A stretch of 64,000 nucleotides of DNA from an uncultured Gammaproteobacteria bacterium. GTDB taxonomy: Bacteria; Pseudomonadota; Gammaproteobacteria; Steroidobacterales; UBA11654. The notes beneath the pieces are model-generated. The model searched no databases, was not told the DNA's origin, and saw only the letters and a list, made by a program, of their open reading frames with translations. Location: NCBI GenBank assembly GCA_937801655.1, contig CALMWC010000012.1:1-64000 (forward strand), read 5' to 3'. Positions 3,663-12,743 of the stretch are shown here, piece after piece (the stretch's first letter is position 1; each line of letters begins with the position of its first letter). Position numbers and translations under genes: made by a program.

Positions 3663-4499
3663 ATGAAAATTCAAGATAAAAATATTGTTGTCACCGGTGC
3701 TGCAAGTGGCATTGGCAAGGCATTAGCTAAGTCATTTTCAAATCACAATGCAAACTCTATCGTGTTAGTTGATATTGATGAAAATGCTCTTAAAGCAAGT
3801 GCTAGTGAAGTTAATGGGTTAGCAATTGTTGGTGATATCTCCAATGAAGAATCGATTGTAGAAATTATAAATAAAAGTAATGATCACATGAATTCAATAG
3901 ACATATTTTGCTCAAATGCAGGCATTGGTGGAGCACCAGGTTTAATTAATACCACTGAGGATGACTGGCAAAAAATATGGCAAGTTAATGTTATGTCACA
4001 TATTTATGCGGCTAAGCATCTTATTCCACAAATGATTAAACAAGGAGAAGGGTATTTAGTTAATACTGCATCCGCTGCCGGTTTATTGACACAAATTGGT
4101 TCAGCTGGATATTCTGTTACAAAATCTGCAGCTATAAGTTTTGCAGAATGGTTAAAAATCACCTATGGCGAAAGAGGCATTGGTGTTTCATGTTTGTGTC
4201 CTCAAGGTGTTAGCACCAGTATGGTTAATGATGCGCCTCAGGTGATCAAAGACATTGTCAGCATTGACGGTATATTAGAGCCTGAAGTTGTGGCAGAAGA
4301 TGTGATCCATGCAATTGAAAACGATGAATTCTTAATAACACCTCATAAACAAGTCATGAAGTATATTCAAATGAAATCGTCTCAGCCTGATGTCTGGATT
4401 TCTGCAATGCAATCTCTTCAGGAACAATTTATTGAGGGCATTAGGGCTGCTGCTCCAGATGACTATAAACTAACTCAAGAAGAAACGACTAAAGATTAA
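3663..4499 (+). CDS. short-chain dehydrogenase/reductase
   Basis: VTGAASGIGKAL Rossmann motif, NAGIGG, SxxxYSVTK catalytic motif. Confidence 0.9.
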   Translation: MKIQDKNIVVTGAASGIGKALAKSFSNHNANSIVLVDIDENALKASASEVNGLAIVGDISNEESIVEIINKSNDHMNSIDIFCSNAGIGGAPGLINTTEDDWQKIWQVNVMSHIYAAKHLIPQMIKQGEGYLVNTASAAGLLTQIGSAGYSVTKSAAISFAEWLKITYGERGIGVSCLCPQGVSTSMVNDAPQVIKDIVSIDGILEPEVVAEDVIHAIENDEFLITPHKQVMKYIQMKSSQPDVWISAMQSLQEQFIEGIRAAAPDDYKLTQEETTKD

Positions 4500-5623
4500 C
4501 TTCTTAAAGTATCTAAAACTCTTGGTAAGGCATCAATGTAACGTTGTATATCTTCTACTTTCCCCATACTTACTCTAGACCAATGACTAAAATTACCATA
4601 TTGACCTTGAATCAAAATACCATGTTTTTTCATTTGATCACGAAATTCGTTTGCATTCAGATCACCAATATTTACAAAAACAAAGTTCGTTTGAGAGGGT
4701 AGTATACTGAGCCCATTCAAAGCAGCTGCTTCATTAACCATCTCTCTCGTTTCAATGATCTTTGATTTAGAATAATTAAGAAACTCTTGATCATTGTAGC
4801 TAGAAATTGCTCCTGCTAATCCGGTTAATGATATTGAAAAATGTCCGGTGCCATTCTTTATAATTGACTGAATCGTCTCTGGTTGTGAAATAATATATCC
4901 AATTCTTTGTCCTGCAAGACCATATATTTTCGAAAAGGTTCTTGAAACTGCAACGTTGTAACCCTTTTTCACCAAGTTGATCATTGTATTCTGATCTGGA
5001 TTGTTGGTAATTTCATTATAAGCTTCATCAACAATGACCAAGGTAGTTTTAGACATTCTAATAACGCTTTCGATTAAAGCCTTAGAATTTAAGATAGTTC
5101 CAGTAGGATTGTTTGGATTGACAATTGAAACAGCAGAAACACCTTTTTTAGCTTTCAATTCTAGCTCATCTAGATTTATTTCTAAATTGATTCCATTGGG
5201 CTGTCTTATAACCTTTCCTCCAGAGGCTTCAGCTGAAAGCAAATGTGTATCCCAGCCTAACTCCATACCCAGTATGGGATTAGTCCTTGCCATAATCTGC
5301 GATAAGTTACTCAGTACTTGAGTGGAGCCAGAACTGATTGCTATTTGATTTGTCTCAATATCATGTTTCTCAGCAATCATTGATTTTAGAATTCCAATCA
5401 GATGATCCGGGTAGTAGGCTCCTTCATAGGTCGATTCAATCATTGAACTGATTGCTTTTTTACTCGGTCCATATGGGTTTTCATTCCAGTGCAATCGGGC
5501 TATACCATCTGCAGCACCATAGAATGTATTAGCCAGTGATCGATTGGGAATAACATTAGTTGCTGCTACTAGAGACAGCAATGATGTTGAGTTGGTAATG
5601 AACTTTCTTCTTGAATAATGCAT
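4496..5623 (-). CDS. PLP-dependent aminotransferase (histidinol-phosphate aminotransferase-like) with Tat signal peptide
   Basis: N-terminal SRRKFITNSTSLLSLVAATNVIP; HWNENPYGPS, NPNNPTGT, VDEAY, SRTFSKIYGLAGQRIGY motifs. Confidence 0.85.
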   Translation of the reverse strand: MHYSRRKFITNSTSLLSLVAATNVIPNRSLANTFYGAADGIARLHWNENPYGPSKKAISSMIESTYEGAYYPDHLIGILKSMIAEKHDIETNQIAISSGSTQVLSNLSQIMARTNPILGMELGWDTHLLSAEASGGKVIRQPNGINLEINLDELELKAKKGVSAVSIVNPNNPTGTILNSKALIESVIRMSKTTLVIVDEAYNEITNNPDQNTMINLVKKGYNVAVSRTFSKIYGLAGQRIGYIISQPETIQSIIKNGTGHFSISLTGLAGAISSYNDQEFLNYSKSKIIETREMVNEAAALNGLSILPSQTNFVFVNIGDLNANEFRDQMKKHGILIQGQYGNFSHWSRVSMGKVEDIQRYIDALPRVLDTLRS

Positions 5624-6793: not shown

Positions 6794-6822
6794 ATTGGTA
6801 ATATTATCGTAAAAAAATTACC
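6794..6822. promoter_or_regulatory. candidate operator: ATTGGTAATATTATCGTAAAAAAATTACC
   Basis: dyad GGTAAT...ATTACC; 26/29 identical to 12623-12651; about 30 bp upstream of the SDR start. Confidence 0.6.
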
Positions 6823-6851
6823 ATATAGACTAACTATGAAGGAGCAAACTA

Positions 6852-7730
6852 ATGCAAGATTTTGAAGGAAAGACAGCAGTTATAACTGGAGCAGCCAGTG
6901 GTATAGGTTATGCTTTAGCTGAACGTTTTGCTCAAGAAAAAATGAACATTGTACTTGCTGATATAGAGCAAGATGCCTTAGATAGTGCTGTAAAAAAGAT
7001 ATCAGATCTTGGCGTAGATGCCACTGGTTTAAAGGTTGATGTTATGGATAAAGATGCTGTCAGTTATCTTGCTGAACAAGCTATTAAAGACTTCGGTAAT
7101 ATTCACATCCTTTGTAATAATGCTGGAGTGGCTAGTACTGTTACAGGAGATGGAATATGGGATCTTGATGCAAGCGACTGGGAATGGGTTTTAGGTGTTA
7201 ATTTTTATGGAACTTTGTATGGGATCGAATCCTTTGTGCCTCATATGATTAAACACAAAGAAGAAGGGCATATTCTTAATACCATTTCTTTGGCAGGTAT
7301 TTTACCAGGGGAAGCTATATATGGAGTAAGTAAACATGCTGCTCTTGCATTGAGTGAATCACTCTGGCAGGGTTTAAAAAAAGCTAAAAGTAAAATTGGA
7401 GCTTCAGTTTTATGCCCAGGTTTTGTAGCTACAAACATCATCGAGTCGGATCGGAATCGACCAGATCACTTACCAGCTAAAAATAAAGCTAATTTCATGT
7501 TAAAGAAATTGGCTGCTACAGTTCTAAAAAGAGGTAAAGAGCCAAACGAAATAGCAGACGTTACATTAGATGCGATTCGAGAAAATAAATTCTATATTCT
7601 TCCACACACTAATTACGATGACATGATTAAAGAAAGGTACAGCCGAATTCTCGCAAGAACTGAACCCCAAGAAGCAGATATGCAAGAAGTGCTGTTGGGA
7701 ACATTAATGAGCAATAAAGGCGAGTGGTAG
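6852..7730 (+). CDS. short-chain dehydrogenase/reductase
   Basis: VITGAASGIGYALA, NNAGVAS, YGVSKHAAL. Confidence 0.9.
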   Translation: MQDFEGKTAVITGAASGIGYALAERFAQEKMNIVLADIEQDALDSAVKKISDLGVDATGLKVDVMDKDAVSYLAEQAIKDFGNIHILCNNAGVASTVTGDGIWDLDASDWEWVLGVNFYGTLYGIESFVPHMIKHKEEGHILNTISLAGILPGEAIYGVSKHAALALSESLWQGLKKAKSKIGASVLCPGFVATNIIESDRNRPDHLPAKNKANFMLKKLAATVLKRGKEPNEIADVTLDAIRENKFYILPHTNYDDMIKERYSRILARTEPQEADMQEVLLGTLMSNKGEW

Positions 7731-7745
7731 TAGGGTTTAGCCAAT

Positions 7746-8858
7746 ATGAAAGTACTAAAGACAATTGGTTATGGTATTTTTTCAGTCTTTGGGATCATCG
7801 TATTATTATTGTTGACTCTCTATCTCACGCAAACCTCAGATTATGAGGTGAATTTAATTACTGACTGCCAATCCGATTCTCAGATTAACGTCTATTGTGA
7901 ATTTAGCAACCCTGAAGATATTGTCGTTCTCCCCGATAATCGACACTTATTAATATCTGAATTTGGAGCTATTGTTCCCCTTAGCCCAGAAAATATACCT
8001 GGTCAAATCTCATTGTTTGATACAGATACAATGAAAAAAAAGTCAATCAAGCTAACTCTCGGTGAAAACATATGGGGCGATAACAATTGTCAACGTGATG
8101 ATCTATTGTTCTCTCCACATGGAATTGATCTTAATCAAAGATCAGATGGTCGTTACCAGCTTGCGGTTATCAATCATATGCCTGAAGAGACCATTGAAAT
8201 GTTTGAGTTACTTAATATGGGTGATTCTTGGATGCTTCAATGGAGAGGGTGTGTGAATGCTCCTGAAACAGGCTATTTTAATGATGTGGCTCTCAGAAAT
8301 GATGGAAGCTTCTTTTCGACGCACATGTATGATAGAGGGGTATCTTACTTGAGTTTAGCCTATATCTCTTATAGCAAGACAGATACTGGTTTTGTTTATC
8401 AATGGAATGCAAATGATGGTTTTACCAGAGTGTTAAACTCTGAAGGTTCCTTTCCCAATGGGATCTCAATCTCAGATGATGAGACAAACTTATTTATTAA
8501 TTATGTTTTTAATCATAGAACCACAAAATTAAATCTATCAAACCTTACTATAGAAGCAGAACACTTTAGTAAAGGCACGCCAGATAATTCATCTATTGAT
8601 GGGGAGTTTATTTGGGTAGCGGTACAAGATAATACCGCTACAGACTTATTGATTCATTGTGATGAGACAGTGGTCCAATGCTCATTACCATTTACGATCT
8701 ATAAATTAAGACAAGAAGATTTATCTGAAGTTGAGGCATTCTCATTCAAGCAAACACAAATAGGTTCGGTTACAGTAGGAGTACCACATAAAGAAAAAGT
8801 GTGGTTAGGTACTTTTATGGGCAATCGAATTGCATCCTTTAACCTAAATCAAGAGTAG
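7746..8858 (+). CDS. membrane-anchored six-bladed beta-propeller (paraoxonase/SMP-30/arylesterase-like) protein
   Basis: N-terminal TM; NPEDIVVLPD, SPHGIDLN, FNDVALRNDG, FPNGISISDDET motifs. Confidence 0.65.
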   Translation: MKVLKTIGYGIFSVFGIIVLLLLTLYLTQTSDYEVNLITDCQSDSQINVYCEFSNPEDIVVLPDNRHLLISEFGAIVPLSPENIPGQISLFDTDTMKKKSIKLTLGENIWGDNNCQRDDLLFSPHGIDLNQRSDGRYQLAVINHMPEETIEMFELLNMGDSWMLQWRGCVNAPETGYFNDVALRNDGSFFSTHMYDRGVSYLSLAYISYSKTDTGFVYQWNANDGFTRVLNSEGSFPNGISISDDETNLFINYVFNHRTTKLNLSNLTIEAEHFSKGTPDNSSIDGEFIWVAVQDNTATDLLIHCDETVVQCSLPFTIYKLRQEDLSEVEAFSFKQTQIGSVTVGVPHKEKVWLGTFMGNRIASFNLNQE

Positions 8859-8863
8859 TAAAA

Positions 8864-9865
8864 ATGAAAGCGTATTTATGTAGAGAGTTTGGCCCCATTG
8901 ATTCACATAAAGTTGAGGAAATTGACAATCCAATTCCAGTAGATCATGAAGTTCTTATAAATGTTCATGCGGCCGGAGTTGCGTTTCCTGATGTTTTAGT
9001 TGTTCAGGGTTTGTATCAGATTAAACCTGATTTCCCTTTTTCCCCTGGAGGTGAATTTGCAGGTGTAGTTCACTCAATAGGTAATAAAGTAAAACTGTGG
9101 AATGTTGGTGATCGAGTAATTGGCTTTAAAGGTAGCGGGGGCTTTTCAGAGCAAGCGATATGTAATGAATACAATATTATGCCTCTCCCTGAATCAATGG
9201 ATTATGTGTCGGGTTCTATTTTTCCTCTAAATTATGGAACCTCCATTCATGCTTTTAAACAACGAGCTGAACTGCAAGCCAAAGAAACAGTTCTAATTAT
9301 GGGAGCAGCAGGCGGACTAGGTATAACAGCTATTCATGTAGCAAAAGCACTAGGTGCAACAGTTATAGCTGCTGCTTCATCTCAAGAGAAGCTAAGCTTA
9401 TGTAAAGCTCAAGGAGCAGATGAATTAATATTATATTCAAGAGACAACATGGACAAGGAGTCTCAAAAAGGGTTTTCTGATCAAATTAAAGCATTAACAA
9501 ACAAACAAGGTGTTGATGTCGTTTTTGACCCAGTAGGTGGTGCTTATTCCGAACCAGCCTTGAGAGCAATGGCTTGGAAAGGAAGATATCTAGTCATTGG
9601 ATTTACTTCTAGTATACCGTCAATACCCTTAAACTTAGCCTTATTAAAAGGTTGTCAGATCGTAGGTGTCTTTTGGGGTAATTTTTGCGTAAAAGAACCA
9701 TTAGTTAATACAGCAAATTTTAAAGATTTATTTGATATGTTTGAAGAAGGAAAAATAAAACCTTTTGTTGTTAAGACATACCCTTTGGAAAAAACCGGAT
9801 ACGCGATTCAATTATTAGCAAAACGTGAGGCAATTGGAAAAATCGCTATCAAGATTCGCGATTAA
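8864..9865 (+). CDS. NADPH:quinone oxidoreductase-like MDR family protein
   Basis: MKAYLCREFGP, PGGEFAGVV, VLIMGAAGGLGITAIHVAKALGATVIAAASS. Confidence 0.85.
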   Translation: MKAYLCREFGPIDSHKVEEIDNPIPVDHEVLINVHAAGVAFPDVLVVQGLYQIKPDFPFSPGGEFAGVVHSIGNKVKLWNVGDRVIGFKGSGGFSEQAICNEYNIMPLPESMDYVSGSIFPLNYGTSIHAFKQRAELQAKETVLIMGAAGGLGITAIHVAKALGATVIAAASSQEKLSLCKAQGADELILYSRDNMDKESQKGFSDQIKALTNKQGVDVVFDPVGGAYSEPALRAMAWKGRYLVIGFTSSIPSIPLNLALLKGCQIVGVFWGNFCVKEPLVNTANFKDLFDMFEEGKIKPFVVKTYPLEKTGYAIQLLAKREAIGKIAIKIRD

Positions 9866-11128
9866 ATGAATTCAACTAAGAGTTATTCTATATTGGGGTT
9901 TCTAACTGTATTAAATATCCTCAATTTTATTGATCGACAATTATTAACAAGTTTTTCTAATTTTATAGTCCCGGAACTCGAGCTTACGAATACCCAATAC
10001 GGGATTTTATCAGGCCTGGCTTTCATTGTTTTTTATTCTGTTATGGGAATAATCATGGGGACCTTAGCAGACCGAGTTAATAGACCAAAGTTTATAGCTA
10101 TTGGTGTGGCTCTATGGAGCTTATTAACAGCCGCTTCTGGTATGGCAAAAAACTTCTGGATGCTTTTTTTTCCAAGAATATTCATTGGCGTAGGGGAATC
10201 TATTTTAACGCCAACATCTTTATCCTACTTGTCTGAACACTTTCATAGGAAGAATTTGGGATTTGTGGCTGGTTTTTATTATCTCGCAGTACCTTTTGGC
10301 GTAACACTTTCTTTTTACATAGCTGGTTTTCTTGGCCCTTTATGGGGTTGGAGAAACTGTTTTTATGCCTTGGGACTTTTGGGTCTGGTATTAGCTGCTT
10401 TAATGCTTTTATTTAAAGAAACCCCTAAAAGAAAAAAGGCAATAAAAAATCTGTCCATTCGGGATGTACTAACTAAAGAAACATTTATAGAGTCACTTCA
10501 TGAATTAAGAAAAACCATTAGAGGAAGTTATGCATTGAGAATGACAATTTATGGAGGTATAGCTGCTAATTTTATTCTCGGCGCTCTCGTTTTTGATCAA
10601 CTCTGGTTGGTCAATGATAAAGGCTTTGATAGAGCTGAGATTCTTATAACCAGTGGAACAATAGGCTTACCTGCTGGTATTTTAGGTATTCTATTTGGCG
10701 GTATAGGCAGTGATTACTACACTAAAGTTACAGGCAAAGGCAGACAAATGTTTCTGTTTTGGTGTCTACTAATCCTTACTCCATTTATTCTCTTTTTTCG
10801 ATTAACAGACGATACAGGGACGATTTTCTTTTCATTATTGTTTCTTGGTTTCTTCCAGTGGGGATGTTTGTATGGGCCAATTAAATCATCAATCCTAGAA
10901 CTTTCACCTGAAAAAAATAAAGCCCTAGTCTTTGCTTATTATTTATTTTTGACGAATTTAATTGGCATTGGTTTATCTACAACCACTGCCGGGATTATGA
11001 TTGATTTCTTAATTGCAAATAATATTGAAAAGCCTTACTCCATTACATTGCTAACTTTCCAATTACTTTCAGCAATTTGTCTGCCAGCATTCTATGTGGC
11101 TGGAAAGAACTATAAACCCATTGATTAG
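9866..11128 (+). CDS. MFS transporter (spinster-like)
   Basis: 420 aa polytopic; NFIDRQLL, GTLADRVNRPKFIAIG, GVGESILTPTSLSYL. Confidence 0.85.
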   Translation: MNSTKSYSILGFLTVLNILNFIDRQLLTSFSNFIVPELELTNTQYGILSGLAFIVFYSVMGIIMGTLADRVNRPKFIAIGVALWSLLTAASGMAKNFWMLFFPRIFIGVGESILTPTSLSYLSEHFHRKNLGFVAGFYYLAVPFGVTLSFYIAGFLGPLWGWRNCFYALGLLGLVLAALMLLFKETPKRKKAIKNLSIRDVLTKETFIESLHELRKTIRGSYALRMTIYGGIAANFILGALVFDQLWLVNDKGFDRAEILITSGTIGLPAGILGILFGGIGSDYYTKVTGKGRQMFLFWCLLILTPFILFFRLTDDTGTIFFSLLFLGFFQWGCLYGPIKSSILELSPEKNKALVFAYYLFLTNLIGIGLSTTTAGIMIDFLIANNIEKPYSITLLTFQLLSAICLPAFYVAGKNYKPID

Positions 11129-11140
11129 TATTTGTATAAC

Positions 11141-12595
11141 CTAAAAAAACTTTAAATCTTTGTCTTTTATTTTTCCATAACGCAAAGCAAGCAAATCGGA
11201 TAGATACTGTTGTGTATTGGTCCATGGTGCTCTCGCTCCTTGCTTTGGAAACTTATGCTTAGCTCTATCAACATAACCAGAAGTAAAGTCCAGCCAAACT
11301 CCCTTTTCTTCAACTGTTTCATCTGTAATTGGCACGCAATAATCAAAGCCTTTTTTATCAATATAGTTAATCAGTCTACAAGCGTATTCTGCAGTAAGAT
11401 CTGCTTTCAATGTCCACGAAGCATTGGTATAGCCAAACGTTACGATCATATTAGGAACATCGGCTATCATCATACTTTTGTAGAACATTTTAGAAGAGAT
11501 ATCCAAATCATTTCCATCTACAATTATCTTCATATCTCCAGCAACTTCCATATTCAATCCTGTTGCAGTGATAATAATATCTGCATCTAGCTGTTTACCG
11601 GATTTAAGCGTAATACCACTTTCTGTGAATCGATCTATATGATCCGTCACAACAGTTGCTTTATCATCATTGATGGCATTAAAAAAATCTCCACCAGGAA
11701 CCAAACAGATCCTCTGATCCCATGGGTTGTATGGCGGAGTAAAATGCTTATTGATATCATAATTTGGTTTCAGTTTATTTTTAACCTCCGAGATCAACCA
11801 AGCTTTTACTTTTTGAGGACGGGCCCTTGCATAATTAAAAAAATACCATTGACTGATCACAATATTTTTCCAGCGAACAACAATGTAGGCAAGCCAATCG
11901 GTGGTATATTTTCTTAAGAAGTTACCAACAGGGTCTTCTTCAGGTCCGATTATGTAATAAGTAGGGGACCTTTGTAGCATTGTAATATGGTCTGTGTCAT
12001 CAGCCATACTTGGAATAATGGTTACCGCAGTTGCACCACTGCCAATAACCACAACCTTTTTACCCTGGTAATCTAAATTACTTGGCCATTGTTGTGGATG
12101 AATAACCTCACCTTTATAATCTTCTTCTCCAGGAAAAACAGGTTTATACCCTTGATCATAATTATAATAGCCACCACAAAATACTAAAAAATCACAAGTG
12201 AGATCATCTTTAGGGTGATCATTATTATTATTGATTGACAATGACCACTGCTTATTTTCTTTTGACCATGAAACAGAATCCACCATCCGATTGAATCTAA
12301 TATTTTGATCAATATTATTTTCCCCAACAATCTCTTTAAGATATTCAAGTATGGAAGGACCATCCGCAACAATTTTTCTACCTACCCATGGTTTAAACCT
12401 ATAACCCATTGTGCACATGTCTGAATCTGACCTAACACCTGGATACTGAAAAAGATCCCAAGTACCTCCAATTGAGTCGCGTCCTTCGAGAATAAGAAAA
12501 CTTTTATCAGGACAGCTTTTTTGTAGGTTATAAGCAGCAGCTATACCAGAGATACCGGCACCTATGATAATGACATCAGTATGCTTATTTTCCAT
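11141..12595 (-). CDS. flavin-containing monooxygenase / Baeyer-Villiger-type monooxygenase
   Basis: IIGAGISGIAAAYNL, ILEGRDSIGGTWDLFQYPGVRSDSDM, VVIGSGATAVTIIPSM, ATGLN. Confidence 0.88.
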   Translation of the reverse strand: MENKHTDVIIIGAGISGIAAAYNLQKSCPDKSFLILEGRDSIGGTWDLFQYPGVRSDSDMCTMGYRFKPWVGRKIVADGPSILEYLKEIVGENNIDQNIRFNRMVDSVSWSKENKQWSLSINNNNDHPKDDLTCDFLVFCGGYYNYDQGYKPVFPGEEDYKGEVIHPQQWPSNLDYQGKKVVVIGSGATAVTIIPSMADDTDHITMLQRSPTYYIIGPEEDPVGNFLRKYTTDWLAYIVVRWKNIVISQWYFFNYARARPQKVKAWLISEVKNKLKPNYDINKHFTPPYNPWDQRICLVPGGDFFNAINDDKATVVTDHIDRFTESGITLKSGKQLDADIIITATGLNMEVAGDMKIIVDGNDLDISSKMFYKSMMIADVPNMIVTFGYTNASWTLKADLTAEYACRLINYIDKKGFDYCVPITDETVEEKGVWLDFTSGYVDRAKHKFPKQGARAPWTNTQQYLSDLLALRYGKIKDKDLKFF

Positions 12596-12622
12596 ATAAA
12601 CACTTATTAGATTAATAAAATA

Positions 12623-12651
12623 ATTGGTAATATTATAGTATAAATATTACC
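12623..12651. promoter_or_regulatory. candidate operator: ATTGGTAATATTATAGTATAAATATTACC
   Basis: perfect dyad GGTAATATT-N8-AATATTACC; near-copy of 6794-6822; 28 bp upstream of the monooxygenase start. Confidence 0.6.
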
Positions 12652-12743
12652 GGTAATTAAAGTTTTAAAATTTATTTATGAACGGCTAATAAGACTGTAA
12701 TATGTCTGAATCCTTTTAAAAATAATTATTTCAAATTCTATTT

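Follow-up and report, generated by a model that had tools for sequence, protein, structure and literature searches.

The window analysed here, a stretch of 64,000 nucleotides (contig C12:1-64000), comes from the draft genome of an uncultured gammaproteobacterium (1.40 Mb, 24 contigs, 82% complete) and carries a five-gene oxidation module flanked by two near-identical DNA dyads. Our analysis makes it likely that these dyads are operators of a TetR repressor encoded on contig C5 of the same genome, and that this repressor controls a catabolic regulon that includes the module. An earlier note on this DNA, made from the sequence letters, had described the dyads and proposed a co-regulated pathway under an unlinked repressor. 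In our best reading, that observation is correct and not due to chance, and the dyads belong to a real, recently expanded TetR catabolic regulon.

Operator-like dyads in the window and across the genome

The two 29-mers lie where the earlier note had placed them (6794-6822 and 12623-12651), are identical at 26 of 29 positions, and stand 29 bp and 30 bp from the outward ATGs of a short-chain dehydrogenase/reductase (SDR; ATG 6852) and a monooxygenase (ATG 12595). The five genes between them have the domains, the strands and the tail-to-tail layout that had been claimed, with 12 bp between the stop codons of the major facilitator superfamily (MFS) transporter and the monooxygenase. Within the window, the 26-base core occurs twice at up to 3 mismatches, where 100 shuffles gave an expectation of 0. 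Scanning the genome with the pattern of the earlier note returned 5 sites, compared with 0 for the reversed pattern, and the dyad with six-base arms, GGTAAT-N14-ATTACC, has 6 exact genomic sites versus ~0.16 expected from base composition. Allowing 1 mismatch in this dyad gave 13 sites genome-wide versus 11 in the reversed control, without excess. Because the relaxed pattern equals its control, exact dyads alone were used to define the regulon, and weaker sites are not claimed. The sites and the promoter elements associated with them are as follows.

6797..6822, plus strand: candidate operator dyad GGTAATATTATCGTAAAAAAATTACC, an exact GGTAAT-N14-ATTACC upstream of the SDR operon, 29 bp from its ATG
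12626..12651, minus strand: candidate operator dyad, read on the minus strand as GGTAATATTTATACTATAATATTACC, the same sequence as the carboxylase-operon operator on contig C5
12632..12637, minus strand: TATAAT, a -10 element read from sequence within the operator, facing the monooxygenase gene
12652..12681, minus strand: stretch similar to the promoter of the carboxylase operon (22/30 here, 25/30 in the nearest species)
C5:59408: dyad that separates a TIGR03084 protein and an acyl-CoA dehydrogenase from the carboxylase operon (CarbB promoter)
C8:11298: dyad upstream of electron transfer flavoprotein (ETF)-ubiquinone oxidoreductase (ETF-QO)
C24:5163: dyad upstream of a two-gene acyl-CoA-dehydrogenase operon (ACAD-E)
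C11:1463: dyad between an SDR and thiolase-fadB

All 6 exact dyads precede oxidation or acyl-CoA genes. At the CarbB, monooxygenase (FMO), ACAD-E and ETF-QO promoters, a TATAAT sits in the spacer between the arms and is oriented toward the gene under control; at ETF-QO, the sister species has TGCAAT instead. These features support the view that both dyads of the window are operators of one TetR-type repressor. The earlier idea of a co-regulated module thus holds insofar as the dyads look like shared operators, and has to be revised in that the regulon is wider than the module and the module operators are lineage-specific.

A TetR regulator in a dyad-headed operon

The window has no TetR gene, as the earlier note had said, and the 4 TetR_N proteins of the genome are all encoded on other contigs. 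In the dyad-headed operon on C5, a TetR regulator (L009:11016-11618) is the third gene, after carboxyltransferase and biotin carboxylase and before AtuA, enoyl-CoA hydratase and two acyl-CoA dehydrogenases. It is the only one of the 4 in a dyad-headed operon, and no dyad lies near any of the other three. Its TetR_N domain (PF00440) scores 29.5 bits against a cut-off of 24, and its predicted model has an all-helical TetR fold whose 50 best Foldseek matches are TetR-type regulators.

This TetR is present in 11/11 genomes of the family, with an exact dyad at the head of the TetR-carrying operon in every one. A profile of the protein, run over a sample of 369 genomes of the class, added a single genome, which belongs to a different family. 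In this twelfth genome, the TetR is 48% identical, the operon order is the same, and the exact dyad GGTAATATAATATCATTAATATTACC heads the operon. All 11 aligned TetRs have an unchanged recognition (helix-turn-helix) stretch, SLRTLYEIA.SK, and the twelfth keeps it as well. Since 12/12 genomes with this TetR keep the dyad at the operon head, the protein is the likely repressor acting at the dyads. Among solved proteins, a putative fatty-acid regulator and AibR are its nearest relatives in sequence, and the fold neighbours of the model include acyl-CoA-responsive FadR proteins, which by analogy points to a CoA-thioester as effector. Filing the protein as KstR or BetI was rejected because the scores are weak; the KstR model gave E 2e-4 and 20.9 bits, below its cut-off of 280.

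That genome of the other family, a small one, carries the whole carboxylase-TetR-AtuA operon in unchanged order (G475 C1:762544-771633, L135), yet a sample of 185 other genomes from the order to which the window belongs lacks a close carboxyltransferase, a distribution that suggests transfer.

Lineage history of the module operators

The regulator is probably closer to the module than the earlier note supposed. In five relatives, the TetR gene lies on the same contig as the module, 21-27 kb away, and the right end of C5 and the left end of C12 are partly syntenic with that interval. Judged from the relatives, C5 and C12 may be adjacent, and in this genome, too, the regulator is probably linked to the module. 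In the relatives, the module sits between an MGMT gene and dnaX.

The module operators do not follow the module genes through the relatives that keep them. The nearest species (G006) has the dyad at the monooxygenase, its SDR promoter not being assembled; elsewhere, the stretches within 300 bp of the gene starts yielded only unconvincing partial matches, even with 3 mismatches allowed. In relatives without the dyad (L064, L067, L063, L069), a shared ~45-bp block of a different kind, AAGATATATTACAAYCTTCT...GTAACYATAGAAATG, directly precedes the monooxygenase start and may be a leader or a separate operator. Among the remaining sites, the thiolase/fadB dyad is exact in 6 genomes and has 1 mismatch in a seventh, and those at ETF-QO and ACAD-E were found in this species and G006 only. 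By this distribution, the thiolase/fadB site is older than the other two.

The monooxygenase site may have a traceable source. In G006, the 30 bp upstream of the operator match the carboxylase promoter at 25/30 positions. Because this exceeds anything reached in 200,000 shuffles (at most 23), the monooxygenase promoter, operator included, appears to be a copy of the carboxylase one. From these comparisons, the module probably came under shared control recently and in a single lineage, that of this species and its nearest relative.

The medium-chain dehydrogenase/reductase (MDR) and MFS genes have 99-100% DNA identity to those of G006, against 87-88% for the neighbouring monooxygenase and dnaX, and a sharp break falls at about 11,120-11,140, by the MFS stop (comparison of L061, L064 and L065). 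In addition, the SDR and lactonase are unusually close to those of G005 and G009. On these identities, the SDR-to-MFS operon (6852-11128) is a block exchanged between species. In a relative of another genus (G010), lactonase, MDR and MFS adjoin dnaX on contig C83 (L130) and the monooxygenase is on C48 (L062); because the contigs differ, monooxygenase and operon are separable.

Predicted functions of the module proteins

6852..7730, plus strand: SDR oxidoreductase of alcohol dehydrogenase type, 292 aa (PF00106, E 5.6e-42; NF004843 over cut-off)
7746..8858, plus strand: paraoxonase-1-like six-bladed propeller, predicted lactonase with N-terminal membrane anchor, 370 aa
8864..9865, plus strand: MDR oxidoreductase of quinone/enone reductase type, 333 aa (solved quinone oxidoreductases)
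9866..11128, plus strand: MFS transporter, 420 aa (PF07690, E 2e-44)
11141..12595, minus strand: type I Baeyer-Villiger monooxygenase candidate, 484 aa (motifs and solved relatives)

The monooxygenase had been labelled a flavin-containing or Baeyer-Villiger monooxygenase, and its motifs back this label, with Baeyer-Villiger enzymes among the best solved relatives. Type I enzymes are marked by two Rossmann motifs GxGxx[GA], by BVMO1, [GA]GxWx4[FY]P[GM]x3D, and by BVMO2, FxGx3Hx3W[PD] (PMC9044951). The protein has both Rossmann motifs (GAGISG at position 12, GSGATA at 185) and BVMO1 (GGTWDLFQYPGVRSD at 43). At the BVMO2 position, 160, it reads YKGEVIHPQQWP, an F to Y change; 10/10 relatives have the exact motif. 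We regard it as a candidate type I Baeyer-Villiger enzyme.

The guess of a lactonase-like propeller is strengthened by matches to paraoxonase PON1 in profile (E 4.3e-10), in fold and in every catalytic residue. The ten best PDB matches of the predicted model (pLDDT 84.7) are all PON1 (Foldseek E 3e-18, TM 0.76). In PON1, the Ca1 ligands are E53, N168, N224, D269 and N270, and the dyad is H115/H134 (PMC7766523); E57, N179, N238, D280, N281, H125 and H144 align with them and are invariant in 8 homologues. The protein begins with a helix at residues 2-30 (29 residues) that is preceded and opened by lysines, and several of its cysteines are invariant. Because of this helix and the invariant cysteines, it is probably a membrane-anchored periplasmic putative lactonase.

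The best solved relatives of the SDR are SDRs, including lignin C-alpha-dehydrogenases. The MDR matches the PIG3 family model TIGR02824 with E 7.9e-64, below its cut-off. Elsewhere in the window, at 4496-5623, a class I/II aminotransferase starts with a twin-arginine-like stretch (SRRKF) and is perhaps exported.

Proposed regulon and alternative explanations

We infer the binding, repression, effector, substrate and reaction order of the following scheme. A TetR dimer would cover the -10 box and block transcription, since TATAAT lies in the arm spacer, as described for KstR (PMC1995591). A CoA-thioester or related pathway intermediate would free TetR and turn on the whole gene set together, namely the carboxylase/AtuA/hydratase/acyl-CoA-dehydrogenase operon, thiolase-fadB, two further acyl-CoA dehydrogenases, ETF-ubiquinone oxidoreductase and the module of the window. 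The compound imported by the MFS carrier would be branched and probably isoprenoid-like. Its peripheral oxidation and its ester or lactone opening would fall to the SDR, the MDR, the Baeyer-Villiger monooxygenase and the paraoxonase-type lactonase and would lead into acyl-CoA breakdown, with ETF-ubiquinone oxidoreductase accepting the electrons of the acyl-CoA dehydrogenases.

Several points weigh against this proposal. The genome is a draft, 82% complete, and has three other TetR genes, none of them in a dyad-carrying operon, that might encode the repressor. The SDR site differs from the other dyads at 3 of 26 bases and has no clear TATAAT. The dyad is absent from the monooxygenase promoter in 8 relatives, and from the SDR promoter in 7, in which that promoter is readable. 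In addition, the predicted lactonase is probably periplasmic and so sits badly with a purely cytoplasmic order of monooxygenase first and lactonase second; its targets could be lactones or esters that have yet to be taken up.

The substrate is the part most exposed to another explanation. The regulon might serve leucine-type or ordinary branched fatty acids, through carboxylation of the methylcrotonyl-CoA type, with the module detoxifying or modifying unrelated ketones and lactones on the same signal. The carboxyltransferase belongs to the methylcrotonyl/geranyl lineage. Such a role is favoured by its slightly higher score with methylcrotonyl- than with geranyl-CoA carboxylase (502 versus 451 bits) and by the draft genome yielding no other protein of this lineage. 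However, Phe191 blocks the pocket of methylcrotonyl-CoA carboxylase where geranyl-CoA carboxylase has Gly162 (PMC4673880), and the alignment puts a Ser there, a small residue that is neither marker; for this reason, geranyl-CoA carboxylase was also rejected as a firm label. The operon also contains AtuA (PF07287, E 8.9e-158), which argues against the leucine-type role. We consider this role rather unlikely, and a branched, isoprenoid-like substrate remains our best guess. A second carboxyltransferase match in the draft genome (G000 C9:34981-36315, L105) has an in-frame TAA and is a pseudogene or an assembly error.

A different repressor, of the TetR family or another, might bind all the dyads and leave the carboxylase-operon TetR a mere neighbour. 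The three further TetR_N proteins allow for this, as does the position of the dyad, which heads the operon and is 3.6 kb away from the TetR gene, not beside it. Yet dyad and TetR co-occur in the same place in 12/12 genomes of two families, and the other TetR genes have no dyad nearby, so that such a repressor seems improbable. It is more improbable still that the module dyads are lineage noise, real but without regulatory effect on the module. They are absent in all relatives but the nearest, as noise would be, but both sites are exact and suitably spaced, each before an outward gene, and one is kept in the sister species despite a monooxygenase gene at 87% DNA identity. A reading of the dyads as a mobile or repetitive element that has multiplied was rejected as very improbable: the ~55 bp common to the monooxygenase and carboxylase promoters do look copied, but the copies lie at promoters with TATAAT facing the gene, elsewhere have little in common beyond 26 bp, and the dyad is conserved at the carboxylase promoter over two families.

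The proposed TetR regulon may also reveal an undescribed route, an idea we hold tentatively and below even chance. Here, the Baeyer-Villiger monooxygenase and the anchored paraoxonase-like lactonase would feed branched acyl-CoA into the AtuA/carboxylase pathway, and the route would have been assembled recently, as the regulon gained operators at a horizontally exchanged operon and at the neighbouring monooxygenase, one of them by promoter copying.

The earlier observation becomes a regulon that can be tested: it has a candidate regulator, its operator is precisely defined, and six promoters carry it. Through this regulon, acyl-CoA breakdown in reduced-genome gammaproteobacteria would be connected with a Baeyer-Villiger monooxygenase and a paraoxonase-like lactonase. 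The sister-species comparison suggests that regulon growth has been caught early, with an old regulator-operator pair and young module operators, which makes directly testable how catabolic genes come under repressor control.

Comparison with known systems

Our literature search turned up neither this regulon nor this gene set as a described system; the nearest known systems each resemble it in part. The KstR regulon of mycobacteria (PMC1995591) also has a TetR repressor of lipid and cholesterol catabolism, a palindrome over the -10 box, and sites scattered before lipid-oxidation genes; 29-bp probes were bound by KstR as a dimer (PMC1995591). It differs in its own operator, TnnAACnnGTTnnA, in its genes and in its far larger size.

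The acyclic terpene utilisation cluster of Pseudomonas (PMC9973270, PMC4097962) is likewise controlled by a TetR protein, AtuR, and contains AtuA, a two-subunit carboxylase of the methylcrotonyl-/geranyl-CoA carboxylase lineage, an enoyl-CoA hydratase and acyl-CoA dehydrogenases. However, AtuR is divergently encoded, whereas the TetR here lies inside the operon; the carboxyltransferase here has Ser versus Gly162, and there are extra targets. The AtuR operator AGCAAGCGCTTGG consists of two 13-bp inverted repeats (PMC9973270), and a search for it in 18 kb of the present cluster gave no match above chance, the dyad here being GGTAAT-N14-ATTACC.

The propeller protein shares with PON1 (PMC7766523) the six-bladed propeller, the calcium ligands, the His dyad and a hydrophobic N-terminus. 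It differs in being ~20% identical, bacterial and part of a catabolic operon, and its lactonase activity is predicted. Limonene and carveol degradation in Rhodococcus erythropolis DCL14 (PMC4097962) offers a parallel in roles, with an alcohol dehydrogenase, an enone reductase, a Baeyer-Villiger monooxygenase and a lactone hydrolase, followed by CoA-based breakdown. This likeness is an analogy of roles drawn without sequence comparison, and the lactonase here is instead paraoxonase-like and anchored.

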